Positions 154 to 19,400 of a stretch of 44,217 nucleotides of DNA are shown piece by piece. Origin of the DNA: Elusimicrobiota bacterium (lineage in GTDB: Bacteria; Elusimicrobiota; UBA8919); assembly GCA_040757695.1 (NCBI GenBank), contig JBFLWK010000001.1, positions 17,665 through 61,881 on the forward strand, written 5' to 3'. Numbering within the stretch: the first letter of the stretch is position 1; every line of letters starts with the position of its first letter. The notes under the pieces are model-generated. The model worked only from the letters and a program-made list of their open reading frames with translations. It searched no databases and was not told the origin of the DNA. The position numbers were made by a program, and so were the translations under genes.

Positions 154-2496
154 TCATCTTGCCACAACTATTGTGCCGTTGCATACATTTTTCCCGTTTT
201 TTATCTGATATATATACACGCCGGGCAACACAATTTTACCGTCTGACTTTTTGCCGTCCCACGCAAACCATGAAAAATCCTTTTTTGTCAGTATAGCGAC
301 TTTTTTACCAGTAATATCAAAAACTTCGCCTTCGACATTTTCTTCTGTGATACCTGTGAATATAAGATTTATCTCATCGTTAATACCATCGTTATTTGGT
401 GTAAAAATTTTTTTCGGGAATGCAGATATGAGTTTCAATTTTGGTGTTTCAATTTTACCGGTATAAAACAAACCCAGTTTTGTCGTCTGGATTGTGATAC
501 TTTTGTCTTTTTTACCGCCGAGTGCGACATATTCTACGCTGTTGTGCCAGTAGACGCAGTCGTCATCAGTTTCAAAAGTAATCTTTACCGGGGTTGGAAA
601 TTGAAAATTGGGTATCTCGGTTAAACTGGAATTATTCAATGGTTTTATCTCGTAAATCTGACCAGTTTTTGTAATTGATATAATAACATCAGAAAGTGTG
701 GACTGAGCCGCAGCCGGGATTTCTATAAGTAAATCCTGCTGTTTTGAAAGCAAGCACTGGTTAGGTTCACTGGGATTTACAGCGATAGAGTTTGCGCTTT
801 CGTTACCGAATTCGTCAACTGCCCTGATAACAGTCCACAAGCCACTGACTGCGGGTGTAGATGTTGTGGTTGTATATCCTGCAAAAGTTTGGGCAGCGCC
901 TATATTTTTAATATCTGCGGATTGATATATTTTATATGTTGCGAAATCAACTATTGGAGTGCCGTCTTCATCCAGCAGCACAGTGTCCCAAGAAATTATT
1001 CCGTCGGTAATTTTGACATTTGCAGGTGCAGATGGCAAAACCGGTTTTACATAAAACGAGCCTGTCAGCGTAGAGGTTGTCACTGCAGGTGAGATATACT
1101 CGTCAGATGCTATTACTTTCCAGTAGTATGTTGTATTTTCTATCAGATTTGTTGTGAATAAAAAACTCGTATTTGTAGTAGTTGTTGTTAGATAAGTTGA
1201 AAAATTAGAAGTTGATGAATAATATATTGTATAATTGATATTCCATGGCGGGTCCGGGTCATCAGAGGCATTCCAAGAAAATGTCGGGCGTTTCAGGACG
1301 GTTTCGTTATTAGGTGATAACAAGTTAAAATCTGTTGGTGCTGAATTGGCTATATTTATATGGACAACACTGCTTGTAGAATATGTTATACCTAAGTCCA
1401 TATCTATCGCTTTTGCCCGCCAGTAGTATGTTTTATCGTCGGAAAGTGGCTCAACAAAAGTGTAAGATGAATATGAAAGCGGTCCTTTTTCGCCTGGCGG
1501 ATATGGAAAATCGCTATAAAAAGAATACTCTATAGAATATGAAGCGATACCTTCACCATCCGGGTCTGTTGTATCTTGCCAATCAAACGATGGCTTTGTA
1601 GTTGTTACAATTGTCCCATTTGAAGGTGAAACAGTTGCAAAATCAAATGGTGGATTATTGAATGGTGTCGCGGATGGTTCCGGCGATGTTATATCTATTG
1701 CTGACCAGCCGGTAGCATTTTCATCTCTTGTTTTTATCGCAAAATAATATGTTGTACCATTTGTAAGTGCTGTAACTGTATAACTTTGCGATACAGATGG
1801 CGATGTAGAAGTTGGGATAACAACCCGATATTGTGTAAGTATGCTATTCCAATCATTTTCGTTCACAATCTGCTGCTGTATAGAATATCTAACCTCAAAC
1901 TGTCCATTGGTAATAGGTCCAATTGTGTTATCATCGCCTGGTGCTGTCCATGTAAGTATTGCTTTTTTATAGCCTGGCGTAACTGACAGGTTGGTGATTG
2001 TATCTGGTGAAATCCATTTCACGATATTGGCGGCACCGAGATTTATACCTGCGACATCAATTGATGAATTCCAGACCGACCAGCCACCACTACCTGACGA
2101 TATTATTGCAAAATAATACCACTGGTTAGGTGCAAGCCCTGTGAGAAGCCGTGATTCTAACTTATTTCCTGAGACAAGTCCTGTCCATGCGTGTGGATAT
2201 GGTGTAGCAATTGAAAATCCTGCTCTTGTAATAACCTCTTTGGTACTATATGTAACCATATAGCCATAGACGGTAGCGAGTGTCCCGTCTTTCCCGGGTG
2301 CAGTCCATTGCAGTACAAGTTCACCCTCGTTACTACCGGGCAGTGCGGTTAAGTCCGAGATATTTGCAGGCACTGCAAAGAGGCAGATAGGAGATAGGAG
2401 ATAGGAGATAGATAAAAAAACAAAAAGCAAAGTTGGGATAGTTTTGCTTTTAGTTTGGAATTTGGAATTTGTGATTTGGAATTTGTCTTTTCTCAT
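154..2496 (-). CDS. Secreted fibronectin type III-like multidomain protein with FlgD-Ig-like C-terminal domain
   Basis: The product is a predicted exported surface protein of 780 residues. A lysine-rich N-terminus and a hydrophobic core (about residues 19-41, ending ICLFA) form a signal peptide. Five fibronectin/Ig-like beta domains follow at roughly residues 44-150, 163-278, 285-385, 389-483 and 489-583; the second carries typical FN3 signatures such as LTWTAPGDD and TYYFAIKTRD. A ZU5-like linking domain (about 588-688) precedes a C-terminal FlgD-Ig/CHU_C-like domain (about 691-780) with FTPNNDGIND near its start and GVYIYQIKNG near its end. Such domains often serve as type IX-like sorting signals. 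I chose the ATG at 2496 because it overlaps the upstream stop as ATGA, as in the D-C gene pair; a GTG at 2517 would add seven residues. It is the last gene of the operon. Tandem repeats encode much of its N-terminus. Adhesion or matrix binding is inferred, not shown. Confidence 0.88.
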   Translation of the reverse strand: MRKDKFQITNSKFQTKSKTIPTLLFVFLSISYLLSPICLFAVPANISDLTALPGSNEGELVLQWTAPGKDGTLATVYGYMVTYSTKEVITRAGFSIATPYPHAWTGLVSGNKLESRLLTGLAPNQWYYFAIISSGSGGWSVWNSSIDVAGINLGAANIVKWISPDTITNLSVTPGYKKAILTWTAPGDDNTIGPITNGQFEVRYSIQQQIVNENDWNSILTQYRVVIPTSTSPSVSQSYTVTALTNGTTYYFAIKTRDENATGWSAIDITSPEPSATPFNNPPFDFATVSPSNGTIVTTTKPSFDWQDTTDPDGEGIASYSIEYSFYSDFPYPPGEKGPLSYSSYTFVEPLSDDKTYYWRAKAIDMDLGITYSTSSVVHINIANSAPTDFNLLSPNNETVLKRPTFSWNASDDPDPPWNINYTIYYSSTSNFSTYLTTTTTNTSFLFTTNLIENTTYYWKVIASDEYISPAVTTSTLTGSFYVKPVLPSAPANVKITDGIISWDTVLLDEDGTPIVDFATYKIYQSADIKNIGAAQTFAGYTTTTSTPAVSGLWTVIRAVDEFGNESANSIAVNPSEPNQCLLSKQQDLLIEIPAAAQSTLSDVIISITKTGQIYEIKPLNNSSLTEIPNFQFPTPVKITFETDDDCVYWHNSVEYVALGGKKDKSITIQTTKLGLFYTGKIETPKLKLISAFPKKIFTPNNDGINDEINLIFTGITEENVEGEVFDITGKKVAILTKKDFSWFAWDGKKSDGKIVLPGVYIYQIKNGKNVCNGTIVVAR
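2390..2486. repeat. SSR repeat element inside signal-peptide codons (E2)
   Basis: The stretch begins (plus strand) with GGCAGATAGGAG and continues with four AGATAGG units. After a short spacer come tandem TTGGAATTT units ending ATTTGTCTTTTC. Its GGCAGAT and ATTTGTC ends resemble the ends of the other elements in the window. It lies in frame within the N-terminal codons of the fibronectin-like gene and encodes both the KFQITNSKFQT segment and part of the hydrophobic core. Confidence 0.65.
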
Positions 2497-5400
2497 ACTG
2501 CTGGCGAGTTCAGCCACCTCCAGAATTTTGCAAAAACCGAGTCAACCTTTTTGTCTAATTTTTTAATATCTTCTGTTGATTGTTTGTTCTCCAACAGTTT
2601 ATTTTTAGCATCCAGAATCGCTTTTTGGAATATCTGTATATTTTTAAATGTTTCAAGTTCTTTTGTTAGCCGGTCTATTTCAGCCAAGTTTTTAGTATTT
2701 GCATTCAGCAATGTTTCTTCAACCATTTTTCGTTCAGATTGATTTTTGTTTTCTATTGCTTCTATTTTTTTTAGAAACTCGGCATCTAATTTTTTTCTTT
2801 CTTGTGCTAATTTGGTTTCCAGTTCGTCTTGTAGTATTAAGAGTTTTTCATCTTTTTGTTTATTTTGGGCTTCTAACAGTGCGAGTTCATTTTCAAATTC
2901 CTGTTTTAAGAAATTCAGTTGCTCATTGTTTGTAGCAATCATTTTTTCATACTTCTGGGTTGCCATTCTTATCTGCTCGTCTATTGTTGATTGGCTTGTT
3001 TTCAATTTTAACTCCATCGCTTCAAGTTCCGCTTTCTTAACTGCGAGCACTCGTAATTCATCTGCCGATTTTGTACGTAATGTTTCCGTTTCTTTCTGTG
3101 CGGCTAATATCTCTTTTTCTAACTCGGTGATTGTTGCTTCTTTATCTACTGCGACTGCTTTTAACTCGGTTTGATAGGCGGCTGTCAGCTGGTTGATTTC
3201 TGTTTCTTTCATTTTGACAAGGTTTTCTATCTCTGATTTTTCAGTTTCCAGCTTTTTTATTTTATCTGTATAAACATTTATCTGATGTTCTAAAGTTTTA
3301 AGCTCGGTTGTTTTGCTGGTTAGTTCGTTAGCAAATTTTGTTCGTTCTGCAATAAGATCTGCGGATAATCTATCAATTTTTTCTTTTAATCCTTTTTCAA
3401 TATGAACCATTTCAGCAAGTCGGGTTTCGTAATTGTTTTTCAGGTTTTGTAATTCCTGTTCTTTTGCTAAAATAGTTGTTTTATCGTTTTTGATTTCTTC
3501 TAAATATTGTTTATTTCTGTACGATGCCTCGTTTGTAATATCAGCAATTTTTTTCTCAAGATACGATTTCTCAGTATCCAGTTTTTTTTGGGAATCCTGC
3601 TGGGCTAATGTCTTTTCTGACTCTATCTGTTTGATTCTGGTTTCATAATCAGTTTTAACTTTTTCGGTTCTTATATGCCATTCTTCATCTCTGGTTCTCA
3701 TGCTTTTTTCATACTCTACTTTTTTAGTTTCTAATTCAATTCTATATTTTTGTTCAAGTTCATCTCTGACAGAAACCAGTTCGTCAATTCTTCGCTGGTT
3801 TTCAGCCCTAAGTTTTTCTATTTCCTGTCTGTATCGTTCTTCAAGGTAATCAATTTCTTTTATCTGCTCCTTTTCAAGCGAACTCAATCTTGCGTAATAA
3901 TTCTGTTCCAGTTTGGTTTTATCATCCAACGATGCAGAAAGCCGTTTTGTGTATTCAGTAGTCAACACTTCTATCTCACTTTTATATTTCATTTCCAATT
4001 TTATATTTTCATTTAATGCATCTGCAAGTCGTTTCTCCAATTCAGACCGGATAGCAAGTTCTCGTCTTTCAAACTCGCTTGTAACGAGTGCAATTTTTTC
4101 ATCTTTTTCTAAAAGCGCTTCTTCATAAAACTCGTGTTGTTTCCGTAGTTCGTCCTGGAAAGACGATTTAATAGACATTATTTCTTTCTCTTTGTCTGAA
4201 ATTATGCTGTCAAGTTTTGCATGGTCTTGCAAGATTGTTTGATTTTTCTGGTTTAGTTCTTCTTTCAATTTTGCTATCTCTAACTGATTAGAGTTATTTA
4301 ACAGGGTGATTCTGTTATTATAGTCCACTTCTATTTTTAGCCGTTCGGCATCTTTTTCGCGTAATTTGCTTTCATAGTCGTTTCTGATATTTGTAGTTCG
4401 GGCATGCCATTCAGTTTCTTTTTCGCGTAGTGCTTTTTCAAACTCTGCTTTTCTGAATAGCAGTGTTGTTTCTATTGCTTTTTTCTCAGTTTCAAGTTCG
4501 GCTAATTTCTTGTTGTAGTTGTCTTTCAGTTTTTGAGTATCTGATTTCATTTCTGCTTCAAGTCGGGTTTTATCACTGTTATTAAACGAAATTTGTTTCT
4601 CGTATTCTGTCTGTAAGAGTGTTTCTCTATCCTGGAACTGTTTTTGCAATGCTGTAATTTCTTCTTCTTTAAATTTCAATTTTTCTAATAGTATTTTTCG
4701 TTCACCTTCAATTTGAGAGTTGAGTGTAATATATTTACCTTCTAAATCTGACATTGCGGTTCTGGCTTGGTTAAGTTTTAACTCGTATTCCGATTTTATA
4801 TTTGCTTCTTTCAGTAAAATTTCGGCTTTTGCGGCTGTTAGTTCGTTTTGCAGTTGTATCAAATTTTTGTTATAATTTTCTTTTGTCTCGTCTAATTTAG
4901 CAATTAAGTTGTTGATTTCAGATTGTTTATTAAAAACCTTTTCATTAAACTCTTTATTAAGCCGTTCTTTTTCCTGCTCTATTTGTTTCAGCAATGTTTC
5001 TTTTTCAGTTTGTAATGTATCCGCTTTGCTGATATAGTTCTTTTCTTTCTGTGAAAATTTCAGATACACATTAGCGATTTTATCTTCATACTGTTTTCGC
5101 AGGAGTTGTAATTTTTCTGCCAGCGTCTGTTCAAGTTTCAGTTTCATTATTTCTATTTCTTGGACAGTATTTTTCTGGATAGTTTTTAACTGCACATCTT
5201 TCATTGCGGATTCTAATTGAGCAGAAGTTGCCTGTTCTTCTTTTGCTTTCAGCGCCTGAAAGAATGTTTTTTCCTGTGCGGTTTCCAGTCGGGCTTGGAG
5301 TTCTTTCAGTGTCTGTTCAAGCCGTAATTTTTCGTCACGGCTTTCTGCTTCTTTTTTTGTTTTTTCTTCTTCTTCTTTTAACTGCCGTGCTGCGAATTCG

Positions 5401-5738
5401 TCCATTACTGTTTGTGATTCTTTCTGCAGTGCTGTTATTTTTTCTTCCCATAATGTTTTTTCGTTATCGTGTTTATCTTGTATTTCTTCAAGCATTTTCA
5501 GCATATCAAGTCGTGTCTGTTCCATTTCCTGAAACTTTTTTTCATAATCAACGGAAGGAGTAGCAGGTAAAGATTGAGACACAGTTGGCATTGGATAAAC
5601 ACCGGGCAACGAGGGGGCGAGTGGTGAAGAAGTTATATCGGGTAGTGGTAAATCCGGTGGTGGAGGTGGGACCAAATTGTTGTTAGAAGGTAATGGTGGC
5701 ACAGTGCTACCAAAAATTTTTGTTTTTTCGTCTTCCAT
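2493..5738 (-). CDS. Long coiled-coil protein with proline-rich head
   Basis: I do not recognise a named family. The 1081-residue product has a proline-rich head (about residues 10-55, including a PPPPP run), then an almost unbroken charged heptad-type coiled coil (about 62-1055) rich in E, K, L and Q, and a short tail with an FAKFWRWL patch near the C-terminus. There is no signal peptide or membrane helix, so it should be cytoplasmic. Two segments about 240 residues apart (near residues 443 and 685) share the pattern EWH-x-RT followed by DYE, indicating internal duplication. The ATG at 5738 has a strong Shine-Dalgarno GGAGG six bases upstream. It lies between the rotor-like fusion gene and the fibronectin gene, and its stop overlaps the latter's ATG. 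A filament, scaffold or tether role is plausible by analogy with coiled-coil cytoskeletal proteins, but that is inference. Confidence 0.85.
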   Translation of the reverse strand: MEDEKTKIFGSTVPPLPSNNNLVPPPPPDLPLPDITSSPLAPSLPGVYPMPTVSQSLPATPSVDYEKKFQEMEQTRLDMLKMLEEIQDKHDNEKTLWEEKITALQKESQTVMDEFAARQLKEEEEKTKKEAESRDEKLRLEQTLKELQARLETAQEKTFFQALKAKEEQATSAQLESAMKDVQLKTIQKNTVQEIEIMKLKLEQTLAEKLQLLRKQYEDKIANVYLKFSQKEKNYISKADTLQTEKETLLKQIEQEKERLNKEFNEKVFNKQSEINNLIAKLDETKENYNKNLIQLQNELTAAKAEILLKEANIKSEYELKLNQARTAMSDLEGKYITLNSQIEGERKILLEKLKFKEEEITALQKQFQDRETLLQTEYEKQISFNNSDKTRLEAEMKSDTQKLKDNYNKKLAELETEKKAIETTLLFRKAEFEKALREKETEWHARTTNIRNDYESKLREKDAERLKIEVDYNNRITLLNNSNQLEIAKLKEELNQKNQTILQDHAKLDSIISDKEKEIMSIKSSFQDELRKQHEFYEEALLEKDEKIALVTSEFERRELAIRSELEKRLADALNENIKLEMKYKSEIEVLTTEYTKRLSASLDDKTKLEQNYYARLSSLEKEQIKEIDYLEERYRQEIEKLRAENQRRIDELVSVRDELEQKYRIELETKKVEYEKSMRTRDEEWHIRTEKVKTDYETRIKQIESEKTLAQQDSQKKLDTEKSYLEKKIADITNEASYRNKQYLEEIKNDKTTILAKEQELQNLKNNYETRLAEMVHIEKGLKEKIDRLSADLIAERTKFANELTSKTTELKTLEHQINVYTDKIKKLETEKSEIENLVKMKETEINQLTAAYQTELKAVAVDKEATITELEKEILAAQKETETLRTKSADELRVLAVKKAELEAMELKLKTSQSTIDEQIRMATQKYEKMIATNNEQLNFLKQEFENELALLEAQNKQKDEKLLILQDELETKLAQERKKLDAEFLKKIEAIENKNQSERKMVEETLLNANTKNLAEIDRLTKELETFKNIQIFQKAILDAKNKLLENKQSTEDIKKLDKKVDSVFAKFWRWLNSPAV

Positions 5739-5751
5739 TTCTGACCTCCAA

Positions 5752-5832
5752 AAAAGGCAAGTTAAAGGTAAAAGGTTAAAGGCTAAAATTTTGGTTTTAC
5801 TTTTAACCTTTTATTTTTCCATTTAACCTATC
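5752..5832. repeat. Intergenic hairpin repeat (E3) between rotor-like and coiled-coil genes
   Basis: The 98-base intergenic gap is nearly filled by an imperfect inverted repeat. AAGTTAAAGGTAAAAGGTTA on one arm faces TTTTACTTTTAACC on the other. The left end is GGCAAGTT (plus strand), like the GGCAGRT ends of the other elements. It lies just upstream of the strong ribosome binding site of the coiled-coil gene. It has no GC-rich stem with a clean U-run, so I do not call it a terminator. Confidence 0.65.
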
Positions 5833-5836
5833 TTTT

Positions 5837-7882
5837 TTATTTTGCTGCCAGTCTTTTTTGTTTCTCAGTTGCAAGCCAATCTCTTAACTGTGTATTTGAT
5901 GGATTAGCAGCGAGTGAGCGTTCATATGATTTTATTGCTTCTTCAATCCGTCCTTTTGAATAGAGACAACTACCAAGATACTGCCACGCCTGCCAGAAAT
6001 TCGGGTTATACTCTACAGACCGCTGAAAATAATGTATTGCATCATCAATTTTCCCGGATGAATACGCAGTAATACCGGCATTATAATACTCTATAGCACG
6101 CTGTGGAGATACTTGTGGTTGCTGAGTTTGGGGTGGGGATTGAGTTTGCTGGGTTTGTTGCTGAGACGGCTGCGGTTGAGTTCTATATTCATCACCAATA
6201 TCCAGTTTCTGTAGCCGACCTTCTATCACAACCGCTGTCCCTTTTTTTTCTTCCATTCGGAGCACTATTTTTCGTTCAGTTTCCATTCTTTTGATTATTT
6301 TTTCAATATCACGCTGTGCTTCTTCTATCTGCTGTGGGCTCACAGGCCTGCCGAAATCCATTTCCTCTTTTAATAATAGCCGACCACCTTCTGACATATT
6401 CGCAAGCACCTTCTGCATAACTGCATCCATCCCGGCACCTTTTAATGCAATTGCTAACTGGTCTGTTTTTACCTCACGCATAATAAACTGAACTGTCTGG
6501 TCTGGCAGGTTTGCTATATCCTCAAACATAAATACATTCTCACGAACTATTTTAGCCAGTCGTGGCGATTGTTTTTCTAATGTGGATAGCATTTCTTTTC
6601 TGATACGGTTTTCAACCTGACCTAAAATTTTTATGAATGCATCCATCCCGCCGACGAGGAAATCAATATTTTTCTTTATCTTATCGTTAATTTTTGTCAC
6701 ATCTTCTTCGGATGTTAGTTTAACATTTGCGAGACAAACCGCAGTTTGGAGTTGTAAATCAGACGGCAGTGCTGCGACAACTTCGGCCGCAAACTCCGGA
6801 TTAAGATAAGTAATAACTAATGCGATTACTTCCGGCGTTTCTTCCTGTAGAAGATAAATCAGATTTTTAAGATTTTCTTTTGTGATATATTCAAACGGTT
6901 TTTCTTTCTTTTTCATTTCTTCTTCCTCCTCTTCTTTTATGGTGACCGAAGCACCTGCTGCACCACCGACACCACCACCGCCACCACCGCCACCACTGCC
7001 AGCACCTTCACCTTTAGTTTCACCTTTACTTTCAGTTTCTGATTTTGACAGTACTGTGAACTCGCCACCTTTTCGGCTTTCTTTGAACGCATTTGCAAAC
7101 GATTGCAAAACACTGTGGAGCGGTCCCATCAAGACAATCAGAAAAATGATACCCAGAATTAGCGGTACAAGAACTTTTGGCTCTAAAAACGGTGCCCAGA
7201 ATGATGTTGTTGTGAATGGCGCTTCTTTTATTTCTAATGTGAACTTGCCACCACCAACATCAGAACCAACCGATTGAGTAATTGCCTCTTTAATAATTAG
7301 TTTCTTGGCTTCCTGTATGCCTTTATCCAGCAGAATTGTTACTTTTAATGCTCTCAACATTGTAGAAACAATTATTCGTTCAGCTTTCTGTGCCTTACCG
7401 GCTGATTTTTCGCTACCTGCAGCGGGCTGTTGAACTTCCGGCGCTACTTCTGCTTCAAACCCTGGCAAAACTTTCGGTTTCGGTTTAACGCCTAAAAATG
7501 GATTCGCCTGCTCAGCAGTACCTTGTGCTTGTTCAGTTTTACCACTCAATTTGACACTCTGTAATTCCGCTGATACAAATACAACTGCTTTACCGGGTCC
7601 GACTATTTTTTCTACAATCTCTATGATACGTTTCTCATAGTCCTTCTCAATCCGCATTTTTTCTTGTAATAGCGTAGAACTATCCGGCTCAACACTATAG
7701 AGGCAGGTAGAAAGGTAGAAAGGTAGAAAGGTAGAAAGTAAAAGGTAAAAAGTAAATAGCAAATAGCGGATAGCGTAGAGCGGATAGCGGATAAAAAACC
7801 AACTGCTAACCTCTATCCTCTCTCCTCTCTCTGCTATCCGCTCACCTCTATTCGCTATTCGCTTAATTACTGATTGATTCAT
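5837..7882 (-). CDS. FliF(RBM3-TM)-FliG(M,C) fusion with C-terminal TPRs; flagellar-type rotor protein
   Basis: This 681-residue protein reads like a flagellar MS-ring C-terminus fused to the switch protein FliG. Residues about 36-63 are a signal peptide or first membrane helix. Residues 80-223 resemble the FliF C-terminal periplasmic domain (IVEKIVGPGKAVVFVSAEL, later ALKVTILLD and APF). Residues 235-257 are a membrane helix. A glycine-rich linker (295-311) leads to a FliG middle domain (about 338-425; ETPEVIALV in place of the usual EHPQ motif, then GGMDAFIKIL) and a FliG C-terminal domain (about 430-540; FMFEDIANL, REV, ALKGA, NMS, PVS, EEAQ). Two TPRs fill 594-665 after a Q/P-rich spacer. 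Charged positions matching E. coli FliG K264, D288 and D289 are K481, E506 and E507; R281 and R297 are replaced by G499 and S515. The FliG N-terminal domain, which binds FliF in flagella, is not visible, as expected for a fusion. The ATG overlaps the upstream stop (ATGA). Confidence 0.9.
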   Translation of the reverse strand: MNQSVIKRIANRGERIAERGERIEVSSWFFIRYPLYAIRYLLFTFYLLLSTFLPFYLSTCLYSVEPDSSTLLQEKMRIEKDYEKRIIEIVEKIVGPGKAVVFVSAELQSVKLSGKTEQAQGTAEQANPFLGVKPKPKVLPGFEAEVAPEVQQPAAGSEKSAGKAQKAERIIVSTMLRALKVTILLDKGIQEAKKLIIKEAITQSVGSDVGGGKFTLEIKEAPFTTTSFWAPFLEPKVLVPLILGIIFLIVLMGPLHSVLQSFANAFKESRKGGEFTVLSKSETESKGETKGEGAGSGGGGGGGGVGGAAGASVTIKEEEEEEMKKKEKPFEYITKENLKNLIYLLQEETPEVIALVITYLNPEFAAEVVAALPSDLQLQTAVCLANVKLTSEEDVTKINDKIKKNIDFLVGGMDAFIKILGQVENRIRKEMLSTLEKQSPRLAKIVRENVFMFEDIANLPDQTVQFIMREVKTDQLAIALKGAGMDAVMQKVLANMSEGGRLLLKEEMDFGRPVSPQQIEEAQRDIEKIIKRMETERKIVLRMEEKKGTAVVIEGRLQKLDIGDEYRTQPQPSQQQTQQTQSPPQTQQPQVSPQRAIEYYNAGITAYSSGKIDDAIHYFQRSVEYNPNFWQAWQYLGSCLYSKGRIEEAIKSYERSLAANPSNTQLRDWLATEKQKRLAAK
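7708..7866. repeat. Composite SSR repeat in the N-terminal codons of the rotor-like gene (E4)
   Basis: On the plus strand the element starts GAGGCAGGTAGAAAGG, continues with about four AGGTAGAA units, then AAAGTAAA units, AATAGC/GGATAGCG units, and finally their reverse complements (CTATCCGCT, ATTCGCT). It is in frame. On the coding strand it encodes the RIANRGERIAERGERI-type repeat and the hydrophobic LLFTFYLLLSTFLPFYL core. About 7768-7834 has a near-identical inverted copy at the left window edge. Confidence 0.7.
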
Positions 7883-9534
7883 TTAGCCTCGCTTTTCAGC
7901 TCGCCTTCAAACATTTTCAAGATATCAAGCACATCCTTATCAGTTGGGTCTATTTCAAGTACTTTTTTCCAGGTAGCAACCGCTTTCTCTTTCAAGTCCA
8001 TCTGATAATAGCAGGAACCCATTCGTTTTAATGCGAGCACATTCTTCGGGTCAATAATCAATATTTCCTGACATTCGTTGATTGCAGCATCGTATTGTTT
8101 CTTTGCGAAGTACTCGCGTGCTTTTTCCTGCTTCTGCTCTATCAGATTGAGTGCCGGTGCGGTAGTAAGTTTTGTGCCTGCTATTGGCGTTAGTGTCTGT
8201 GCGGCTTCTTTTTCTACATCGTTTAACAGCCGTCTTAATTTCTCATGCTGAGGTTGTAGCGTATAAGCATGTCTTAATGCCATCACCGAACTATTCAAAT
8301 CACCTTCAATATAGTAAGCGATACCAGTTCGGATTGATTCTGCTTCTGTTGTTGTTCCTTTTTCAGCAGCAATCCAGCCGGAGACAATTTGGATTCGTGG
8401 TAGCGCTCTGGCTAAATCCTCGTTTGTCGGGTCCACACTATACGCTTTTGATAAACGGTCCATTGCAACCAGATACTCGCCGATTTTGTACGCATCCATA
8501 CCTTCTCGGAAGTATTTTGCCATCTCTTCAAACTTGCCGGTTGATGCAGATTTACCGAATCGCCAGCCAGCGGAAACCCGTGTGGACGAGCCTAACTCAT
8601 GAAACGCCATTGCAAAATCAAGCGTATAGTCCCTGTAGCGTCCGCCACAGCCCGCAGTGGTTTCTCTAATACCGCTATCGCCAACATCAAACCCGAACCG
8701 TGCTGCAACATAGTCCATCGCCCAGTATTCAGCGCCTACATGATAATTTGGGTTCGCCCGCATTCCCTTTTCAATATCAAGCGCAATTGTTAAGCGGTCT
8801 TTCAGCGCTTTGTACGCACCACCAAGTTTCAGAACTATCGGGAAACTATCATCTGTATCACCCATTTTTATTGAGATTAGATTCTGGATATCCAGCCCGA
8901 TTTTTAATTTTGGATACACATCTTTTATGATGAGTGCTGCATCGGATGTCATGAATGCAACCTTATAGATATCAATCACATGTGAAACATATTTTATAGT
9001 AGTGCCGAATGTAATTTTTTTAGACAGGTCTTTCCCGTAAGAGCCGCAGTAGGCTGTCTGTGCATCCTTAAAAGTGCCCAGCACCCTAAAATCTACAACA
9101 TCATTTTCTGTATTTCGTTCTATTGTAACCTTTTCAAACCCGCCTGATGTAAGCGAGACAATAGAAATACCGAATACACCAAGTTTGGTTGTCGGATGCG
9201 CATATGAGATAAAACTGTATGCGGTATCATACCATAATTTTGCGTAAAGCCCTGTGAACTCTTTACGTTCTAATTGAGTAAGCCCTGCGGGATTCCAGTA
9301 TGTTGCGGATGCATCGTCTGATATTGCGATAAATGCTTTACCCATAGCGAGCGCTCGGGCACCCGCACCCCAGGATAGAAACTGGGCAGGTTGTCCGCCG
9401 GAAGCCGCGCCGTAAAGGCAGGTGCCTAAGTGGATAAGTGAATAAGTGAATAAGTGAATAGTAAATACAAACCACTTAACCACATAGCCACTTAACCACT
9501 TGTTTCTATTCATTTGGTATTTTTTTGTTTTCAT
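7879..9534 (-). CDS. PorV/PorQ-family outer-membrane beta-barrel protein with C-terminal TPR repeats
   Basis: The product (551 residues from the ATG at 9534) has a signal peptide ending near CLYG-AASGG. It then carries the family signature GARALAMGKAFIAISDD followed by SATYWNPAGL, typical of PorV/PorQ (UPF0164) outer-membrane barrels. Amphipathic strands continue to about residue 330, ending SAGWRFG. The last roughly 200 residues hold about four TPRs, for example EYFAKKQYDAAINECQEIL and YYQMDLKEKAVATWKKVLEI. PorV shuttles type IX secretion substrates to surface attachment in Bacteroidota; a related role for the proteins here with FlgD-Ig-like C-termini is inferred. I chose ATG 9534 because AAGGA lies ten bases upstream. 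The longer frame to 9597 would start at TTG and run through the terminator hairpin. It is the first gene of the operon, directly behind the riboswitch, and its stop overlaps the next ATG. Confidence 0.88.
   Translation of the reverse strand: MKTKKYQMNRNKWLSGYVVKWFVFTIHLFTYSLIHLGTCLYGAASGGQPAQFLSWGAGARALAMGKAFIAISDDASATYWNPAGLTQLERKEFTGLYAKLWYDTAYSFISYAHPTTKLGVFGISIVSLTSGGFEKVTIERNTENDVVDFRVLGTFKDAQTAYCGSYGKDLSKKITFGTTIKYVSHVIDIYKVAFMTSDAALIIKDVYPKLKIGLDIQNLISIKMGDTDDSFPIVLKLGGAYKALKDRLTIALDIEKGMRANPNYHVGAEYWAMDYVAARFGFDVGDSGIRETTAGCGGRYRDYTLDFAMAFHELGSSTRVSAGWRFGKSASTGKFEEMAKYFREGMDAYKIGEYLVAMDRLSKAYSVDPTNEDLARALPRIQIVSGWIAAEKGTTTEAESIRTGIAYYIEGDLNSSVMALRHAYTLQPQHEKLRRLLNDVEKEAAQTLTPIAGTKLTTAPALNLIEQKQEKAREYFAKKQYDAAINECQEILIIDPKNVLALKRMGSCYYQMDLKEKAVATWKKVLEIDPTDKDVLDILKMFEGELKSEAK
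9417..9515. repeat. SSR hairpin repeat in signal-peptide codons of the PorV-like gene (E5)
   Basis: On the plus strand it begins AAAGGCAGGTGCCTAAGTGG, with about four TAAGTGAA-type units, an AT-rich loop, then CCACTTAACC units on the other arm, forming a long inverted repeat. It is in frame and encodes the hydrophobic segment WFVFTIHLFTYSLIHLGTCL of the signal peptide. The junction CCTGCCTTTACGG (coding strand) is identical over 13 bases to the junction of the element in the riboswitch (plus strand, about 9778-9790). Confidence 0.7.
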
Positions 9535-9551: not shown

Positions 9552-9587
9552 AAAAAAACCGAGTTGACGGGCGATACCGAAACTCGG
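9552..9587 (-). terminator. Intrinsic terminator of the riboswitch expression platform
   Basis: On the minus strand CCGAGTT (9587-9581) pairs perfectly with AACTCGG (9565-9559), followed at once by seven T residues. It sits between the aptamer and the ribosome binding site of the PorV-like gene, where a transcriptional riboswitch terminator belongs. TACCGAAATT at the aptamer 3' side (about 9688-9679) can pair with AGTTTCGGTA in the terminator (about 9584-9575), giving a ten-base-pair antiterminator with one wobble. Ligand binding would hold the aptamer strand and favour termination, so an OFF switch is predicted. Confidence 0.8.
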
Positions 9588-9676: not shown

Positions 9677-9705
9677 CTAATTTCGGTAACCCGGCATCTA
9701 TAACT

Positions 9706-9782
9706 GCAAGTTAAAAGTTTAAGGTTAAAGGTTAAAATTTTTCTGTTTCAATTTTAATTTTAACTTTTTACTTTTAACCTGC
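9706..9782. repeat. Hairpin repeat inserted in the second arm of the riboswitch (E7)
   Basis: On the minus strand GCAGGTTAAAAG (9782-9771) pairs with CTTTTAACTTGC (9717-9706) over twelve positions with one G-T wobble. The interior is TTAAAGG/TTAAAAT simple sequence. The ends are GGCAGGT and ACTTGC. The element prolongs the arm that normally carries the tetraloop receptor, leaving the GACGCAAAGCC and CCGGGTTACCG core blocks intact. Confidence 0.75.
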
Positions 9783-9812
9783 CTTTACGGATATTGGCTT
9801 TGCGTCCCCATT

Positions 9813-9910
9813 AAAGACTGTGTAATGTTAAAAGTGTAATGTGTAAAGTAAAAATTTAAAACCACTACTTACATTACACATAACACCTTACACATTTCAC
9901 ATCTTCTTCA
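9813..9910. repeat. Hairpin repeat inserted in the P1b loop of the riboswitch (E8)
   Basis: On the minus strand TGTGAAATGTGTAAGG and TTATGTGTAATG units face CATTACACTTTTAACATTA then CACA, forming a long imperfect hairpin. It replaces the small GNRA-type loop that usually closes the P1b stem. The stem itself (CCTATT with AATGGG) is retained and can continue into the insert through AAGA/TCTT. Confidence 0.72.
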
Positions 9911-9983
9911 AATAGGTTTGCTATTATCGTTTCTACAGCGATATAATTAAGCACCTCGCCAATTACATCGGCTCGGTACTATA

Positions 9984-10012
9984 ATTATAAAGAATTTTTT
10001 GTATTTTGTCAA
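9984..10012 (-). promoter_or_regulatory. Consensus sigma-70 promoter of the four-gene operon
   Basis: On the minus strand a perfect TTGACA (10012-10007) and a perfect TATAAT (9989-9984) are separated by exactly 17 bases. The predicted start site is near 9977, about 50 nt upstream of the riboswitch. The untranslated leader to the ATG at 9534 would be about 443 nt. No operator site was evident, so the riboswitch is probably the main visible control. Confidence 0.87.
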
Positions 10013-10100: not shown

Positions 10101-10440
10101 TTAATGGATGACACCTATTTTTCGTATTGCGGTTTTTGTACCATATGGACCAACTGCTCGTATCTGGGCGATATAGCCGCCACGTGCTACAAAATCACTA
10201 AGTTCGTTTTTACCATCCCAGATAACATCATTTGGACCTTGTTTCCCGCCCGGGGTGCCTTTCGGGAAACTTATTTCTAACACCTTATAGCCCAGCAAAT
10301 CATATATTGTGATTGTGACATCCGCATCCTGATTCAAGATATAAGTGATATGTGTTTTACCTTCTTCACCACCTTTTCGGGTATCAAACGGGTTCGGATA
10401 ATTAGAAACATTAGTTATAACTTCTGCGGGCAGCCCTGTT
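10101..10440 (-). other. C-terminal FlgD-Ig/type IX-like sorting domain of the giant protein
   Basis: The last 112 residues begin near VITNVSNYPNPFD and contain ITYILNQDADVTITIYDLLG, WDGKNE and GGYIAQIRA, ending RKIGVIH. This is the pattern of FlgD-Ig-like C-terminal domains that act as sorting or anchoring signals on secreted proteins of Bacteroidota-like and candidate-phylum bacteria. The fibronectin-like protein at 154-2496 ends in a related domain, so both may use the same export or attachment route. Confidence 0.75.
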
Positions 10441-13400
10441 GTTGCGGCTTCTGATGGCTCAGACCATGCGGACCATGCGCTTGCATTATTTTTGGCACGC
10501 ACACGGTATCTATAGAAATGTCCTGGTTTCTTATTGAGTACTGTAATTTTTGCATACCCACGTGGTAAGAAATCGCCTTCTAATGTATGTACATCTTTTG
10601 GTGATGCAGTTTGAGTATCATTATTCACATCATACCAGTGCCAGACAGGATTATTATCTTCTTGTTCTTGAATTTCATAACCTGAGACACCTGACTCGTC
10701 GTCTGTAGAGAATACCCATTCTACTGTGTACTGTGTAGCAGGCACTTTAGTAAGATATGTTGATGGGACGGGCTTACCGGGCACAGATGGTGGTGTTAAA
10801 TCTACCCTGACTGCTGCCAACCCGGGCAGTGATGGTATCCCGATGTTGTTAACTGACCGAACTGCGACATAATATGTTGCTTTATGTTCAAGTGGTTTAG
10901 GCATACTTGCAGCAACATATGTAGAAAGCCCTACTTTTTGATAGCCATCGCTGAAATCCGGTTTGTCTTCATCGCGTGTTACAGGCAGTGTTGCGATACC
11001 ATATTCATTTTCTACTATTGGGAATTGGAGCGGGTCTGGTGTCTCGCCTGGTATCCATGCAGCTTTGATTTCGTTTTGCGAACAAATCCATTCATCAACA
11101 AACACAATTGGTGTTGTAGCTTTAGAGAAATGGCGGATAACGCCAAGTGGCGACTCATATGGGAATGCAGATTCAGTTGATGAAATCGCAGTGAATGGGT
11201 CTATTGTAAACATACTGTATGCACCGATACCAATTCCAACCATATCGCCTTCAGTTGAGCGGCCTGTTGTATCGGTTCGGCCGATTTTACCGACGATAAA
11301 GTATCTTACAGGCGTAGTTGTTATTGTTTGTGTAGAGAAATAGAGTCGTGCGACACCATTTATGAAGTCCGCAGTTCCGTGAGTAACTGACGAGATAAAT
11401 TCATCGCCAGTAATAGTATAAAAGCCATCATTGTTGAGATCTCGGATTACAGATTCATTTGTATCCCACTTTTGGTTATTATTGTTGTCTGCATATTTCT
11501 CGCTGTTGCCTAGAGACACCAGATGCTCAATCGTGATAGTTTCCAACAACAGTATTGCGGCTGCCTCAGAGAGGTCACTGTAGCCAGCAAGAGTTCCTAA
11601 TAGTATAGGCTCGCCAGCGTCATAGATACCGTTGTTGTTAGAGTCTCTAACAACAGTTTTTTCTAATTTTTGCTTTATCCCTCTTACTATGCAGTAAATA
11701 TCTGCATACTTTTCATTATTGTCCGGAGACCTTAGTGGTGTACTTTCTGGAGGAGCATTTCCTAATAACACATTATCTGCAAGATTGGAGGGGACGCATA
11801 TCCCATCGCCATTATCCTTGTAAAGTCCTAACTCTGAAATATCACCATCACCAATCATAGAGAATGGCGGGTTGTAACTACCTATCTGCTCTATCATCAT
11901 CCCAGACCAGCCAACAGAATGGATATGTGTATTCATATCTAACGACATCAGTGCATACTGGCGGTCTTGCGTGAGCCCTGGCGGTATCAGGAACTTGCCA
12001 ATAGCGGAGACCTTGATAGGCCCGATTGCAGATGGTGAGGTCTCAAAAGTACCGAATGGCAGCACAACATCTTTTCTGTTATTTGACAAATCCAGCAGGA
12101 AATATGCATTAGAACCGATACTCATACCTAATGTATTATCCCGTAGTGCATTGGGTGAAATATCGTAAGCAATCAGATATGATTTCCAGGACAATGCACC
12201 TATTCTTTGTGGCTCGGTTAGATTTATCAGTTTAGAATTCCCAACGACATCTGCGGGGAAGAAATCAGTTCCAGATGATATCAGCGGGTCATCGCCAACC
12301 TGTAAGATACCATCTAAATTAGCATCACGGTATATTTTGATATACTGGACATCACGGTTAGTTCCACCACCTGCACCCTGCTGTGCCTGTTGAAATTTAG
12401 GTATCCGTTCAACCAATAATGATTTCCAGGTTGCTTCTGAAACTGCGGTTTTCATCTTTGCCCAAATCATTACTACATCGCGGTCGCCCTGTATCACAGA
12501 CGGTGGTGAGACATCGTATAACTCAATTGTAATCTCATCTGGATAGTCAATAATCAGTGAATTATCCGTCTGTGGCTGAAGTGGGAAGCCCTTGAACTCT
12601 ACATCATCAGGCGCTATCACAAAGAAATCAGTTGTATTCTCTATGAACAGTCCGATATCGTTACCTACAACTGCGGTTGGGTTTATATCAAATGTAACAA
12701 AATAGCGCTGGTTCCAGGATGGATTCTTTGATTTCTGTAATAACTCATACTCGTAAGAATAGATTGTCTGATAGGTACTTTCCGGGAAATTAATTGTTGC
12801 GATACCTTCTATGAGTTTATCAGTCCCTAATGAAAGTCTTTCGTCACCCTGACCGGGCACAGTAGATATTTCTAACTCGTTAGAGAAGTTAGTATCCTTG
12901 TAGACATTCACACCTGCAATATCTGAATCTATCGCAGAGCCGGTTTTTTTCACCCGAACTCCCTTCCAGATTGCTTGACGAGTTGCAGTTCTCAAATCCA
13001 GCGCAACCATCGCATAATCTGCGGTTGCCTGTAATACTGTTTTTTTCGCACGATTCTCGTATCTTACTTCCATAATATCGCGTGTTGGCTTGATTATTGG
13101 TGTTGCGGATTTGATTGGGAAGTTGGCATTTGAAACGCTATTGGGGTCGTTGACTTTTACTGCGAATACAGAACAGCCGATAGAATCGTCTTCTACTGCA
13201 GACTGTGAAATATCAAATGTAACATAGTAATAAGTTGGTGTTGTGGTAATTACTGCGAAGTTGCCGGGTACACCGGGCGTAATTTTCTCTTTCCACTCTG
13301 TATCATTCAAATCTATATATGCCATCCCTTCTGTGCCTTCATAACCTACACCGGGTGTACCAAACTTATACGGATAGTACATACCGGTTGAGATTACGAT

Positions 13401-16400
13401 ATCGTCTGGCGACCATTTCCCGTAATTCAGCCCTTCTGCATCACGCCATACTTTTATCTCAACTACATCAGAATCACGCACATTCCCGCCAGGCAGTGTT
13501 TCCCGCTTTAAGATAAGTTGTTTCCATTTCACATTATAGCCATCGCAAGATAGTATCAGTTTAAGCATAGGTACATTTGACTCAGATTGAACAAACGCTT
13601 TCCAGACAACTGCGGAGATATTATGTCCTGTAATAGAGGTATTAGCGAGTGTTGGGTCACCTCGGGAACAACCTAACAGATAATTATATGGTACTGCTGT
13701 AGATACACCGGTATAGTAAATGATTTCGTTATCTATTATTACCCGGCGACCGCCGACACCGGGCGCAGATTCTATTGAATGTGGCTCAAATGCTTCAGCA
13801 CCAGTATTTGCAGGGTCTATTGGTATCTCGGTTTCATCTAATGCGATAGACCCACCAAGTGAGCAGGCGGTTCTTGAAAGGTCTGTTTTATCAATTGTGA
13901 CCACACGTGGTGTTGCGATAAGTAATGCAAGGCTTGATTCAAACGGTAGATTATCCGAACCCATTGTATTCGGTGATACGATATTGAACTGCGCAGCCGC
14001 ATCCGCCGGCTGAGTAGAGCCACTCATTTCAAACCCGGCACCAATAAAGAAGTCAGGCACCGCTAAATCATTAATATCATACAGAATATAATAGAACTGC
14101 GTATAGGTTGAAATTATCTGTGTATAGTTAACAGGCCATGTAGCGAATCTTATATCCGCTTCTGCTGGGATACCGTAATTGTTGAATGTGCCACTACCTA
14201 TAATAATATCATTCTTATAATTGTATACACCATCACCATTATCTTTTGCGATTTTAACCAGTGTTACATCAGAGTCCCGAGAAGTGCCCAGCCGTCTCAC
14301 TTTCACACCTTTCCACGGTGCCCACGAGTTGACGGTTTTCATCTCAAACCGTGCCATAACCGCATCTGTGGTTCGCTGTTGCAGTGTCAGTGGCACTAAC
14401 GAGATAGGTTTGCAGATAACAGTATCTGCATACTCCATCACCGTCCCGCTAACTTTTCGTTCAAATGGCGGGATATCGTTATAGACCTCTACTTTATCAG
14501 GCGCTTGGACGGTTATGTAATCAGTTGTCTTTATATTAAACCCGGGCAGTGTTGGACCTGTAGATGCGAAGTACGAGAAATCAAATGTCACAAAATAGGT
14601 TTTCTTTAACTGGCTGGCTTTCAGGATTTCCTGACCATCAAACTGACCGTAAATTTGAAGTGTTGCTTGACCGGGTTCATCAGGTGCTTGACCAAATTGT
14701 CTGATATTAGATACCAGTTGGTCACTGGTGGGCTCAAACAAGCCGTTATCATTTATATCATACCAGACCTTAACTGCGGCTATATCAGCATCAGAAGAAC
14801 CCGGCTGACCGACTCTATCCAGTTTGAGTTGTTTCCAGATAGTTGCGTTATCATTCGTGTACATTCTGAATGCGCCGATTGCCTTATCCGTATCGCCCTG
14901 GACAACATTTTCAGGCGGGATACCTTCAGATTGCCGTGGCTCAATATAAAGCGTATCTATTGTTGCGGTAATTTGGGGTTGTGAAGATTCAAAATCTTTG
15001 TGGGTTGCCAATTCACCACCTATTATATCAAACGCATCAATAGGTATCTTGGCGCCAATTGTCTCGCCAATCTGTGCATTACTGCCTATCCTGTATGCGA
15101 TATAGTACCATCGTGTAGTCGGCGAGATCAGGTTTTCTACATCCCAGTTGGTTTGTGGATTATTATCGTCAGTAGTCGGGTCATCTACAACATCTATCCA
15201 TGTTGCAGTATATGTAGAGAATTCTATAGCGGATAACAGCGAGTCCTCAGTCGGTTTGAATATCCCATCTGAAGTAACATACAAGTCTGCATAGAGTTTT
15301 AGTAATGGTACATTTTGTGGTAATGTTAGTGCAGAACCACTGCCAATTGCTGAGACTCTGATTTTTTTCAGAATAGATGTGAACTCGTTGGTCCATAAAC
15401 CGAACTTTAAGAAGCCGACATTATCCTTGCCTTGTGAAACTGTAGGCCAGTTAGATGAATACCCGATTTCATACCATGCTGCAATATCGGTTGCTTCAAC
15501 AGTTACTAATGGTGGTGCGGTTCGTATATATGATGGATATGTATCAAACTGCAGATTATTCGCAGCCAGTTCTACTGAATCAGCGGTTTTGCTAAAATAC
15601 GCAGTATCTACAATTCGTAAGCCAACCTGTTTATCTTTCTGTGCAGTAATCGGGATCCTAACACAGACAAAGTAGTTGACTGGTGTAGAATAAATCTTTT
15701 GCGGGTTGCCTGTAAAATCAAGCCAGCAGTCTGCAGGTTGATTTAGTGCAGTGAGTGTTGTAGAAGTGATAAATGTATCTGTTGGCTCGCCATCTAAGAA
15801 TGTTTCACCATCAAACTTGGCATTCCCATTAGCATCTTTATAGAGTGCAATCTCGCCAATATCAGCATATGCGCCTGTAGACATTGTAGACATCGCAACC
15901 CTTAATTTCTGCCATTCAAACTTTGCAGCAGCTGTAGAGCCAATCACCTGCATTGTGATACGCATCATCTCTATAGGTGCTGGGGCGCCCTTCCGATACC
16001 CATCACCTTGATACAGCGCACCCGGGATACCAAGCGATTGTTTGGAAATTGCACGTTCAGGATTATCTGAATACATTGGGTCTTCAGGCGCTGTATCTTT
16101 AGGTGAGAATAGCGTACCTGTTGTAGGTAGGTCATCAGTAGATTGCGGACAATTCCCGGGATTACCTGTATAGCCAGTGATTATATCCGGCGAATTAGTA
16201 ACCCAGTCGGTTGCGCCGATTTTGAGTGTTTCTACATAGAGCGATTTTATCATTGCTGGATATACACCTTTAAGGTCTGCTGTAAACACCGCATTACCTG
16301 AAGTTGAAAACCCGTGTCCTGAAACATCCATAGATGCGGTACCAACATAATAGTTTCCATTAGTTTCATCACCTGTACAGATATTACCGAATTCATCTCG

Positions 16401-19400
16401 GGCAACTACATTAACCTGTGCGGGTGTATTGACCTCTGTTTTTTCTACCTGTTTCTCAACTGAGAAGTAGTCGGCTTTATTCGGTGTGATAGTAACTGCT
16501 TTAGTGCCTGCTTGAACCTCATAACCAAACTCACCTGTGGTAGGTTGGACTGTAATCACTGGTGTAGCAGCCCGTTCATCTTTATAATAGAACTCATATG
16601 AAAGCGACGAATTAGATGGTATCCCGATACTGTTCGCAGTCCAGTCCCATTTATCAGAGCCCGGCGGGTTTGCGGATGCCGGTCCGTTGCTGAATCTACC
16701 AGTATCTGCACTAGAGAATAAATCAGCATTGATAGTTCGCGTAGTGATACAGATATTGCCATATACATCACGCGGTCTGATAAAGAATCTAGTATCAGTA
16801 GTTGTGCCAACTGTATAGTTCGGATAGTACTGAACTGTTGTATTGGCAATCAATTTTCTGTAATTGAGTCCTGGCAATACTACTTCTAACGCTTGTATTC
16901 TGTTTGGAATGATTGTGATAGATGATATACCGATTGCCAGATTCCCAATAGTTCGCTGTGCGGTAAGCGTGGTAGATGCAGCAACCACATCGAGATAGTA
17001 GAAATAGGTTGTCTGTTCACCTGTGAGTATCTTACAACTCCCAGTGTATTCTGTCCAGCCACTATAATCTGAATAGAATTTCTTATATCCGGCACCATCT
17101 GATGTAAGGTTTAACACCTCACCACCGGCAACCTGGACGGGTCTGGGATTGTAGTACGCGTCTCTTGTCTGAACATAGATTGCAGTAGAAGTAGTGCCGG
17201 CGACTAATTCGCCTTGATATGTATTCACAAAGCCAACCCGAGAGACATCAACTGGTATAATTGTTACTGATTGATAATTAGACGAGATATCCCAACTCGG
17301 TGTTGCAATCAGTTTAGGTTTGCCAGTACCCTGGACTTCGGTTGAACAGGAATCCAGATAGTAGAATGTTGCAAAATACCAGTTTAGCGGGATTGTAACA
17401 GATGAAATTGTTGTTACAAACCCTTTTGTAGGATGCTGTAAAGATATTGTAGCGGTTGAATCCGAGAACCCGAATGTATCTACTGCGACATCATAGCCAA
17501 CAGTTCTATTTACAGCCAGATTAATTGTACAGGGTGCGGTAGAGTATGTGGGGTTATTGTAAGAATCCTGCAGTTCTACTTTGAATGTTACATTCCCGAG
17601 CCCTGACTGATATGGTTTGCCAGCAAATAGTGTTCGTGCAGGATTATCAAACGCAACTTTTACGGTATCCGCAGGGACAACTAACATATCATGTTTGGTT
17701 TGGAATTTGTCCGGCTCAAGTTCTATCTGAACTGACCAGCTACCGGTTCGGTTATCCTCGCCAATTGGGATTGACGACATCTCATCGTGATACCAGAATG
17801 CAGCACGGCTGTTGATATACTGCTCACCGCCAACATCCTCAGGCGCACCTGCTCTGCCTTCACCTGGATATGGTATTCGGACATCGTCAATATAGACGCC
17901 TTCCGCATCCAGAAAACCGTAATTCAACTGATATAATTTGCCTTGATTAGCGTGATATGTTTTTTCAGCAGATGGCAATGAAACCGAGATAAATGATTGA
18001 CCTTCCTCAGTTTCGTTATCAAACGCATCCTGTCTAACAATGATAAACTTTATGCGTTGATTATAATTCCCCGCAGTTGCGGTTGGTGACGATATAAATG
18101 CCAGTTTAGACGGTGTTCCACCAATCGTTAGCATTTTAGCAGAAATATTCTGTTTCATCAGGATATAATCAGTAACATCGGTTGGTGCAGGGATTGTACC
18201 TATCCAGACCCGTGCAAAATCGTCTTTCTTGGTTGATACATAATAGTATAACGCACCGAGTGTACCGCCAATCTTGCCATCTGCATCGGTTGTTGTAGAA
18301 GCCCAGACAACATTATTGATATCTCTAACTACGCCAACATTAGTTGAACTGCCGGTATCTACTACTGCAATATAACAGGTAATCCCACTGGAAGAGATAT
18401 TATTCTCATATTCGTCAATCAGTTGACCTGAAACCTGCTTTTTACCAACAGTGGCTGAAATTTCTACAGGGTCGCCGGCATCAATCTCAGGTGAAACAAG
18501 CGAAGCAGCAATCGGACCCGCAGTTATATCTATCAGCGGGTCTGTAGAATAGCCAGTTCTGTTGGTTGATATATTACTATTAGTAGTATCCTGTGCATGT
18601 ATCCAGCGAGTACCTCGTGCTTTTAAGATAAGCGGACCTGCCGGATGACCGCTGAACAATACTGTTGTGCCTCTATCCAGCGGTGTAAATGTGATATTGG
18701 TTGGTAGTGATGGCTCTTTTTTGCCTGTAAACATTTCTGCCGAAAACTCAACAGTACCTGTGTAGGTATTCACTCCAGTAGAGCAGATATTACCGTATTC
18801 GTCATAGACAGTCAGTCGTGGATACAGTGGCATACCCGCTTGCTTGGTTGTTAGCGGCTCGTCTGGTAGATTAGGCAGGAACTTCATATAATATGCTGGT
18901 TTTGGATAGATATACATTTCAGACGATGTAGACGGCTGATAGTTATAGCCACTCCCATCAATATCAGATGCACAGACAGTATTGGTTGACCACGCAGTTC
19001 TTAAGCCATTAGCGATATAGAATTCTCTGAAACCGCTATTTAACTGCCCATCAGGTGGCGAGATAAACAGCGGATCTTTTGAGGTGATTCTGACAAGTGG
19101 TGCGCCATCCGGATTCTGGGTGATTCTATTCCAGTAGTTATCAGTCGCATAGACAGTGATAGAGAATGCTTCACCGGCTATCTTGGTTTGCGGTGTGCCT
19201 GTTTTACCGCCGGTATTATCAGTATAGGGTGGTTTGCCAGGTACAGCGGTTTCACCGGGTAAGATAACCTGCAGTTTAGTTGGTGTTGATGCAATCACGC
19301 TGAATAGCGGTGTAGTATCGTTTAATTTATTTGTATCGTTTTTAGTCACTATGCACGCACTCGCAGCTGCAGTTGATGCCCTGTATAATACTGTATCGCT

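Follow-up and report, generated by a model that had tools for sequence, protein, structure and literature searches.

The minus strand of an Elusimicrobiota genome carries, ahead of an operon for PorV-like and FliG-like proteins, a GEMM-I riboswitch with A at the position that is G20 in canonical c-di-GMP-I switches, and we think it rather likely that this A20 switch responds to c-di-GMP in vivo and turns the operon off by transcription termination. As far as can be read from the DNA, the aptamer core, the A20, the switch on orthologous genes, the promoter, the terminator and the alternative pairing are established. The window, by which we mean the whole 44,217-nt stretch analysed, belongs to a 2.9-Mb genome that is 99% complete and whose closest named relatives are Elusimicrobia MAGs. 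The leader is flanked by the 3' end of an open reading frame of 11,316 codons (10101..44051) and by a run of four genes (9534..154). The 11,316-aa frame, also on the minus strand, terminates just upstream of the riboswitch promoter and had no Pfam match in its first 4,800 or its last 4,800 amino acids, both ends having been searched.

The element had originally been predicted at 9679-9928 on the minus strand. We trained a covariance model (R1) on leaders from 12 Elusimicrobiota relatives, with the window left out, and scanned the 44-kb window with it. R1 matched 9929..9682 on the minus strand (31.4 bits, E = 3.8e-9, the E-values of the tool being rough), which places the predicted coordinates right to within a few bases, and this match was the sole one in the window at E <= 10. 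That a held-out model yields a single match in 44 kb rules out a chance match. When R1 was run without a filter the window RNA came out as two pieces, because placing it at full length with its 80-nt inserts is penalised. The aptamer (9682..9929, minus strand) comprises P1 (C9929-G9684 and G9928-C9685), J1/2 (AUAAUA, 9927..9922), P2, J2/3 and P3. Its conserved blocks stand on the minus strand in the order originally described: the first, CGAUAAUAGCAAACC (CG-AUAAUA-GCAAACC), at 9929..9915, the second, GACGCAAAGCC, at 9806..9796, which includes C46 (9802) and A47 (9801) as well as the 5' strand of P3, and the third, GAUGCCGGGUUACCG, at 9698..9684. Core blocks in this order with P1, P2 and P3 present are the mark of GEMM-I (RF01051), as are P2 and P3 helices that covary in orthologous leaders. 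Both helices do so in the 12 training leaders, where 13 pairs of P2 and P3 are altered on both sides and 94% of cells are paired, compared with 74% after shuffling and 31-43% after sliding. P2 is paired in 100% of its cells, with changes on both sides in five of six pairs, and P3 in 100% of cells in its outer part and 82% in its inner part. From this sequence comparison the window element is confirmed as a genuine GEMM-I riboswitch, and hence as a member of a class of cyclic-dinucleotide sensors.

The signals on either side of the aptamer fall outside the span first predicted. A sigma-70-type promoter (9984..10012, minus strand), with TTGACA (10012..10007) and TATAAT (9989..9984) separated by 17 nt, fits the consensus at 12 of 12 positions, and the same promoter is found in two orthologous leaders (L080 and L081). 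Downstream, an intrinsic terminator (9552..9587, minus strand), consisting of CCGAGUU ... AACUCGG and then seven U, precedes the start codon at 9534 and is conserved in L059, L061, L044, L051 and L058. The switching (A) strand CGGGUUACCGAAA (9681..9693, minus strand), which is part of P3, J1/3 and P1 and includes C92 (9686), pairs at about -17 kcal/mol with the antiterminator (T) strand UUUCGGUAUCGCCCG (9568..9582, minus strand), which lies within the terminator hairpin. In the window and the five leaders just named, the C92-containing strand CGGGUUACCGAA(A/C) pairs into the terminator hairpin at -12.5 to -18 kcal/mol; in all six (five A20, one G20) the A:T duplex and the terminator are mutually exclusive, and masking the A strand lets the terminator form. 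Among 500 mononucleotide shuffles the duplex was matched in 5 for the window, in none for L059, L061 or L044, in 16 for L051 and in 11 for L058, and in the last two of the six leaders it is above chance only moderately. Within the window's family this expression platform is common to the A20 leaders and the G20 leader L044. No such terminator was seen in the family f6 leaders and L013, where the start codon lies within ~20 nt and control may be translational.

We infer that without ligand 9693..9681 would pair with 9582..9568, blocking the terminator and keeping the operon on, and that bound ligand would lock 9693..9684 into the aptamer, letting the terminator (9587..9552) form and switching the operon off. 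The OFF direction is the simple reading of minimum-energy folds, computed without kinetics. An operon that is off at high c-di-GMP would suit the usual motile-to-sessile logic.

The operon behind the switch, described in the original prediction as a rotor/adhesin operon, encodes PorV-like and FliG-like proteins. Gene 1 (7879..9534, minus strand) specifies a 551-aa PorV-family outer-membrane protein with C-terminal TPRs (PorV_fam NF033709, 132.7 bits against a cut-off of 90). The 681-aa product of gene 2 (5837..7882, minus strand) has an N-terminal hydrophobic segment, a transmembrane segment at ~235-255, FliG middle and C domains and then TPRs; its region ~65-230 looks like FliF by eye, a likeness without profile support. 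Gene 3 (2493..5738, minus strand; 1081 aa) matches no family, and homologues come next in L080 and L081, while gene 4 (154..2517, minus strand; 787 aa) combines fn3 domains with a C-terminus of the CHU_C / type IX sorting-like kind. The predicted products could fairly be described as a FliG-like rotor or scaffold, anchored in the membrane and linked to a type-IX-like outer-membrane route. The FliG-like protein is encoded outside any flagellar operon.

The A reported before GCAAACC is A9922 (minus strand), preceded by U19 (9923), and it is conserved at the orthologous site in seven genomes. We take A9922 to be the position of G20 in Vc2, by counting along the known Vc2 aptamer; the equivalence rests in part also on Rfam alignments. 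The bases at Vc2-equivalent positions 20, 47 and 92 are then A9922, A9801 and C9686, and A20 is likewise present in L059/L080 and L061/L081. An A at this position is one of the features of GEMM-Ib and departs from the G20 of canonical c-di-GMP-I switches. We parsed 51 Elusimicrobiota leaders automatically for their junction bases (one, L015, was misparsed and is actually G20) and found A20 in ~18 of them. Among leaders with U19, 13 of 14 are A20 (Fisher p ~3e-7, uncorrected for relatedness), a co-occurrence that points to the pocket being under selection rather than drifting. It is established that G20A enables the GEMM-I pocket to bind cGAMP (PMC7288161, PMC11352751). The J1/2 sequence AUAAUA of the window agrees with A11 A12 U13 A14 of the Geobacter cGAMP switch (PMC7288161), and the pair that closes P2 is G21-C46, as in c-di-GMP switches, where the Geobacter structure has C15-G40 (PMC6274999).

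A search of 60 genomes with the gene 1 protein gave 14 strong full-length matches (E <= 1e-108, the window's own counted), and a GEMM-I leader lies ~0.1-0.7 kb upstream of all 14 PorV-TPR orthologues (two in tandem), the window copy being counted through R1 and not through Rfam. At the orthologous site seven genomes have A20 (G000, G003, G005, G027, G029, G044 and G056) and seven have G20 (G001, G011, G034, G036, G040, G042 and G053), and a more distant gene 1 orthologue in GH52 has a G20 leader too; both bases are found over the same target gene. Since A20 genomes are found in two distinct families (f1 and f6) and both states occur within f1, the base at position 20 has probably switched more than once with its target unchanged. 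Leaders that differ at position 20 over one and the same gene make the question of whether A20 alone predicts cGAMP directly testable, and they warn against naming cGAMP sensors from a single base. A cyclic-dinucleotide switch ahead of a membrane-anchored FliG-like/PorV operon is thereby placed across much of an almost uncultured phylum.

Which cyclic dinucleotides the cells can make was read from their synthases. Of the 11 GGDEF domains encoded by the window's genome, eight read GGEEF and three GGDDF, and every one has Asp at the selectivity position; the eight canonical GGEEF domains provide c-di-GMP synthases. GGDEF proteins with Ser or Thr at that position make cGAMP (PMC9140294; see also PMC6456294 for the reading of this position). 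The search for such Hypr-type enzymes suggested with the original prediction came up empty: none was found among 81 GGDEF domains in 12 genomes (11 in the window's genome and 70 in 11 relatives, the majority of which carry A20 switches), and the Hypr partner expected of a GEMM-Ib switch is absent from the 11 domains of the window's own genome. Atypical domains in the relatives comprise one in G011 with Asn at the selectivity position, the degenerate L143 and L155, and L156, which is cut by a contig end. The orthologous family f6 GGDEF proteins L103, L113, L115 and L117 read GGDEI or GGDEV. The companion search for a DncV-like enzyme turned up one CBASS CD-NTase in the window's genome, where a CBASS-like pair (L095:1444-2894, on G000:C39) joins a CD-NTase (L095:1444-2295; PADLOC Cyclase, 368 bits) to a 2TM effector (259 bits). 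CD-NTases are encoded in G000, G027 and G044, and a search limited to the SMODS family gave no match in the A20 genomes G003, G005, G029 and G056. This CBASS nucleotidyltransferase is the only candidate source of cGAMP in the window's genome.

On the reading that we prefer, the physiological ligand would be c-di-GMP made by the eight canonical GGEEF proteins, with A20 being tolerated or the pocket being relaxed so as to take c-di-GMP plus cGAMP. We consider c-di-GMP rather likely to be the main signal because G20 is found on the same gene elsewhere, no Ser/Thr GGDEF domain occurs in the 12 genomes, and G20 is also the base in L001, L002 and L219, the remaining three GEMM-I leaders found in the window's genome. 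Vc2 variants with G20A retain c-di-GMP binding too. Several points run against c-di-GMP, namely the capacity of a G20A pocket to bind cGAMP, the Geobacter-like AUAAUA, the linkage of U19 with A20 and the presence of the CBASS nucleotidyltransferase.

These same points would fit a cGAMP-selective, GEMM-Ib-like switch, in which A20 would pair with the adenine of 3',3'-cGAMP, with the CBASS nucleotidyltransferase, or else an enzyme that escaped recognition, as its source, but we consider such a switch unlikely. A20 follows U19 as in the Geobacter structure, yet P2 is closed by G21-C46 in place of C15-G40; A20 recurs in the window's family, where three genomes have it, and in family f6, where all four PorV leaders do, yet G20 switches control the same operon in other genomes. 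With the three other switches of the genome being G20, two signals could be told apart in one cell. Ser/Thr GGDEF domains are absent from all 12 genomes, and the CD-NTase, although present in G000, G027 and G044, is paired with a 2TM effector in CBASS-like fashion and has no SMODS counterpart in four of the A20 genomes. The original prediction of a cGAMP or mixed sensor thus keeps the fit of AUAAUA to Geobacter U13-A14 and loses ground to the G20 switches on the same operon, to the 81 domains among which no Hypr GGDEF was found and perhaps to G21-C46; for the window switch, the genomic evidence leans against cGAMP. We are similarly doubtful that, in this lineage generally, A20 GEMM-I switches would be sensors of cGAMP (or of c-di-GMP plus cGAMP) that do without Hypr GGDEF enzymes, draw their signal from a CD-NTase or some unknown cyclase and share the cell with G20 switches for c-di-GMP. 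If this were true, the signal governing the FliG-like membrane machine would differ from that of the remaining GEMM-I genes. A promiscuous sensor that would sum c-di-GMP and cGAMP, a c-di-GMP switch triggered also during CBASS-type signalling, could draw on the cGAMP binding that G20A makes possible in Vc2 and on the co-occurrence of canonical c-di-GMP synthases and a CD-NTase in the window's genome, but a CD-NTase went undetected in several A20 genomes and we regard this explanation as decidedly improbable.

The Rfam scan proposed at the outset, run with the inserts in place, gave no GEMM match in the window, loose thresholds included, because palindromes of ~80-90 nt occupy both arms of the aptamer. 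The P2-loop insert (9818..9903, minus strand) is self-complementary, folds at about -30 kcal/mol and belongs to a repeat family with 13 genome matches; the P3-loop insert (9704..9782, minus strand), which likewise folds at about -30 kcal/mol, is a copy of a dispersed ~80-bp repeat with 57 genome matches, often at 76-90% identity along its length. miRNA families that appeared in the window at loose Rfam E-values derive from these palindromic inserts and were rejected. Switches above the RF01051 threshold occur elsewhere in the same genome (C117 and C93) and in many relatives. The RF01051 gathering score is 35, and A20 orthologous leaders whose arms are compact reach 59-61 bits; the A20 leaders directly upstream of the gene 1 orthologues in G005 and G003, whose arms are shorter, score 32 and 31.4 bits. 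The G20 leader L219 (G000:C50) bears a similar palindrome in its P2 loop (GCAGGTTAAA...TTTAACTTGCAG), as judged by eye, and the leaders L001 and L002 of the same genome each have a P3 insert yet lie above the Rfam cut-off. Dispersed palindromes seem to enter riboswitch loops repeatedly with the core left intact, and their presence in the loops of both arms is one way in which riboswitches escape Rfam. A decayed aptamer, its fold destroyed by the P2 and P3 palindromes and its leader constitutive or terminator-only, would explain the 80-90 nt inserts in both arms, the replaced P2 hairpin loop and the failure of Rfam to recognise the RNA, but is very improbable given that the inserts are self-complementary and confined to apical loops, that no core position has been lost, that promoter, platform and the two P1 pairs are likewise preserved, and that L001 and L002 exceed the cut-off despite their P3 inserts. 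The stretches coding for the signal peptides of gene 1 (~9520..9440) and gene 2 (at the start of 5837..7882) also have a palindromic or repeat-derived look and do not align with their orthologues, as if such elements had been inserted there too.

Among known systems, the window switch shares with c-di-GMP-I / GEMM-I (RF01051; V. cholerae Vc2) the block order, G21-C46, A47, C92 and the three-way junction of P1, P2 and P3, and both are found on surface or motility genes. It differs from Vc2 in having A20 instead of G20, a large P3 insert and a palindrome in place of the P2 loop; the GNRA tetraloop contact is therefore missing in the window copy. With the Geobacter GEMM-Ib cGAMP switch (PDB 4YAZ, Gs1761; pilM) it has in common A20 (A14) after a U (U13) and the equivalents of A11/A12, A41/A42 and C75/C76, as well as a transcription-termination platform. 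In contrast to that switch, however, P2 in the window is closed by G-C and not C15-G40, the base beside C75 is A and not G74, the genome is devoid of Ser/Thr GGDEF domains, and the predicted direction is OFF where pilM is ON. The classes c-di-GMP-I-GGC (RF03167) and c-di-GMP-I-UAU (RF03168) belong to the same clan as the window element, and RF03167 gives sub-threshold matches on two orthologous A20 leaders. Read at positions 20, 47 and 92, the window has A-A-C, whereas the consensus sequences of RF03167 and RF03168 have G-G-C and U-A-U, respectively.
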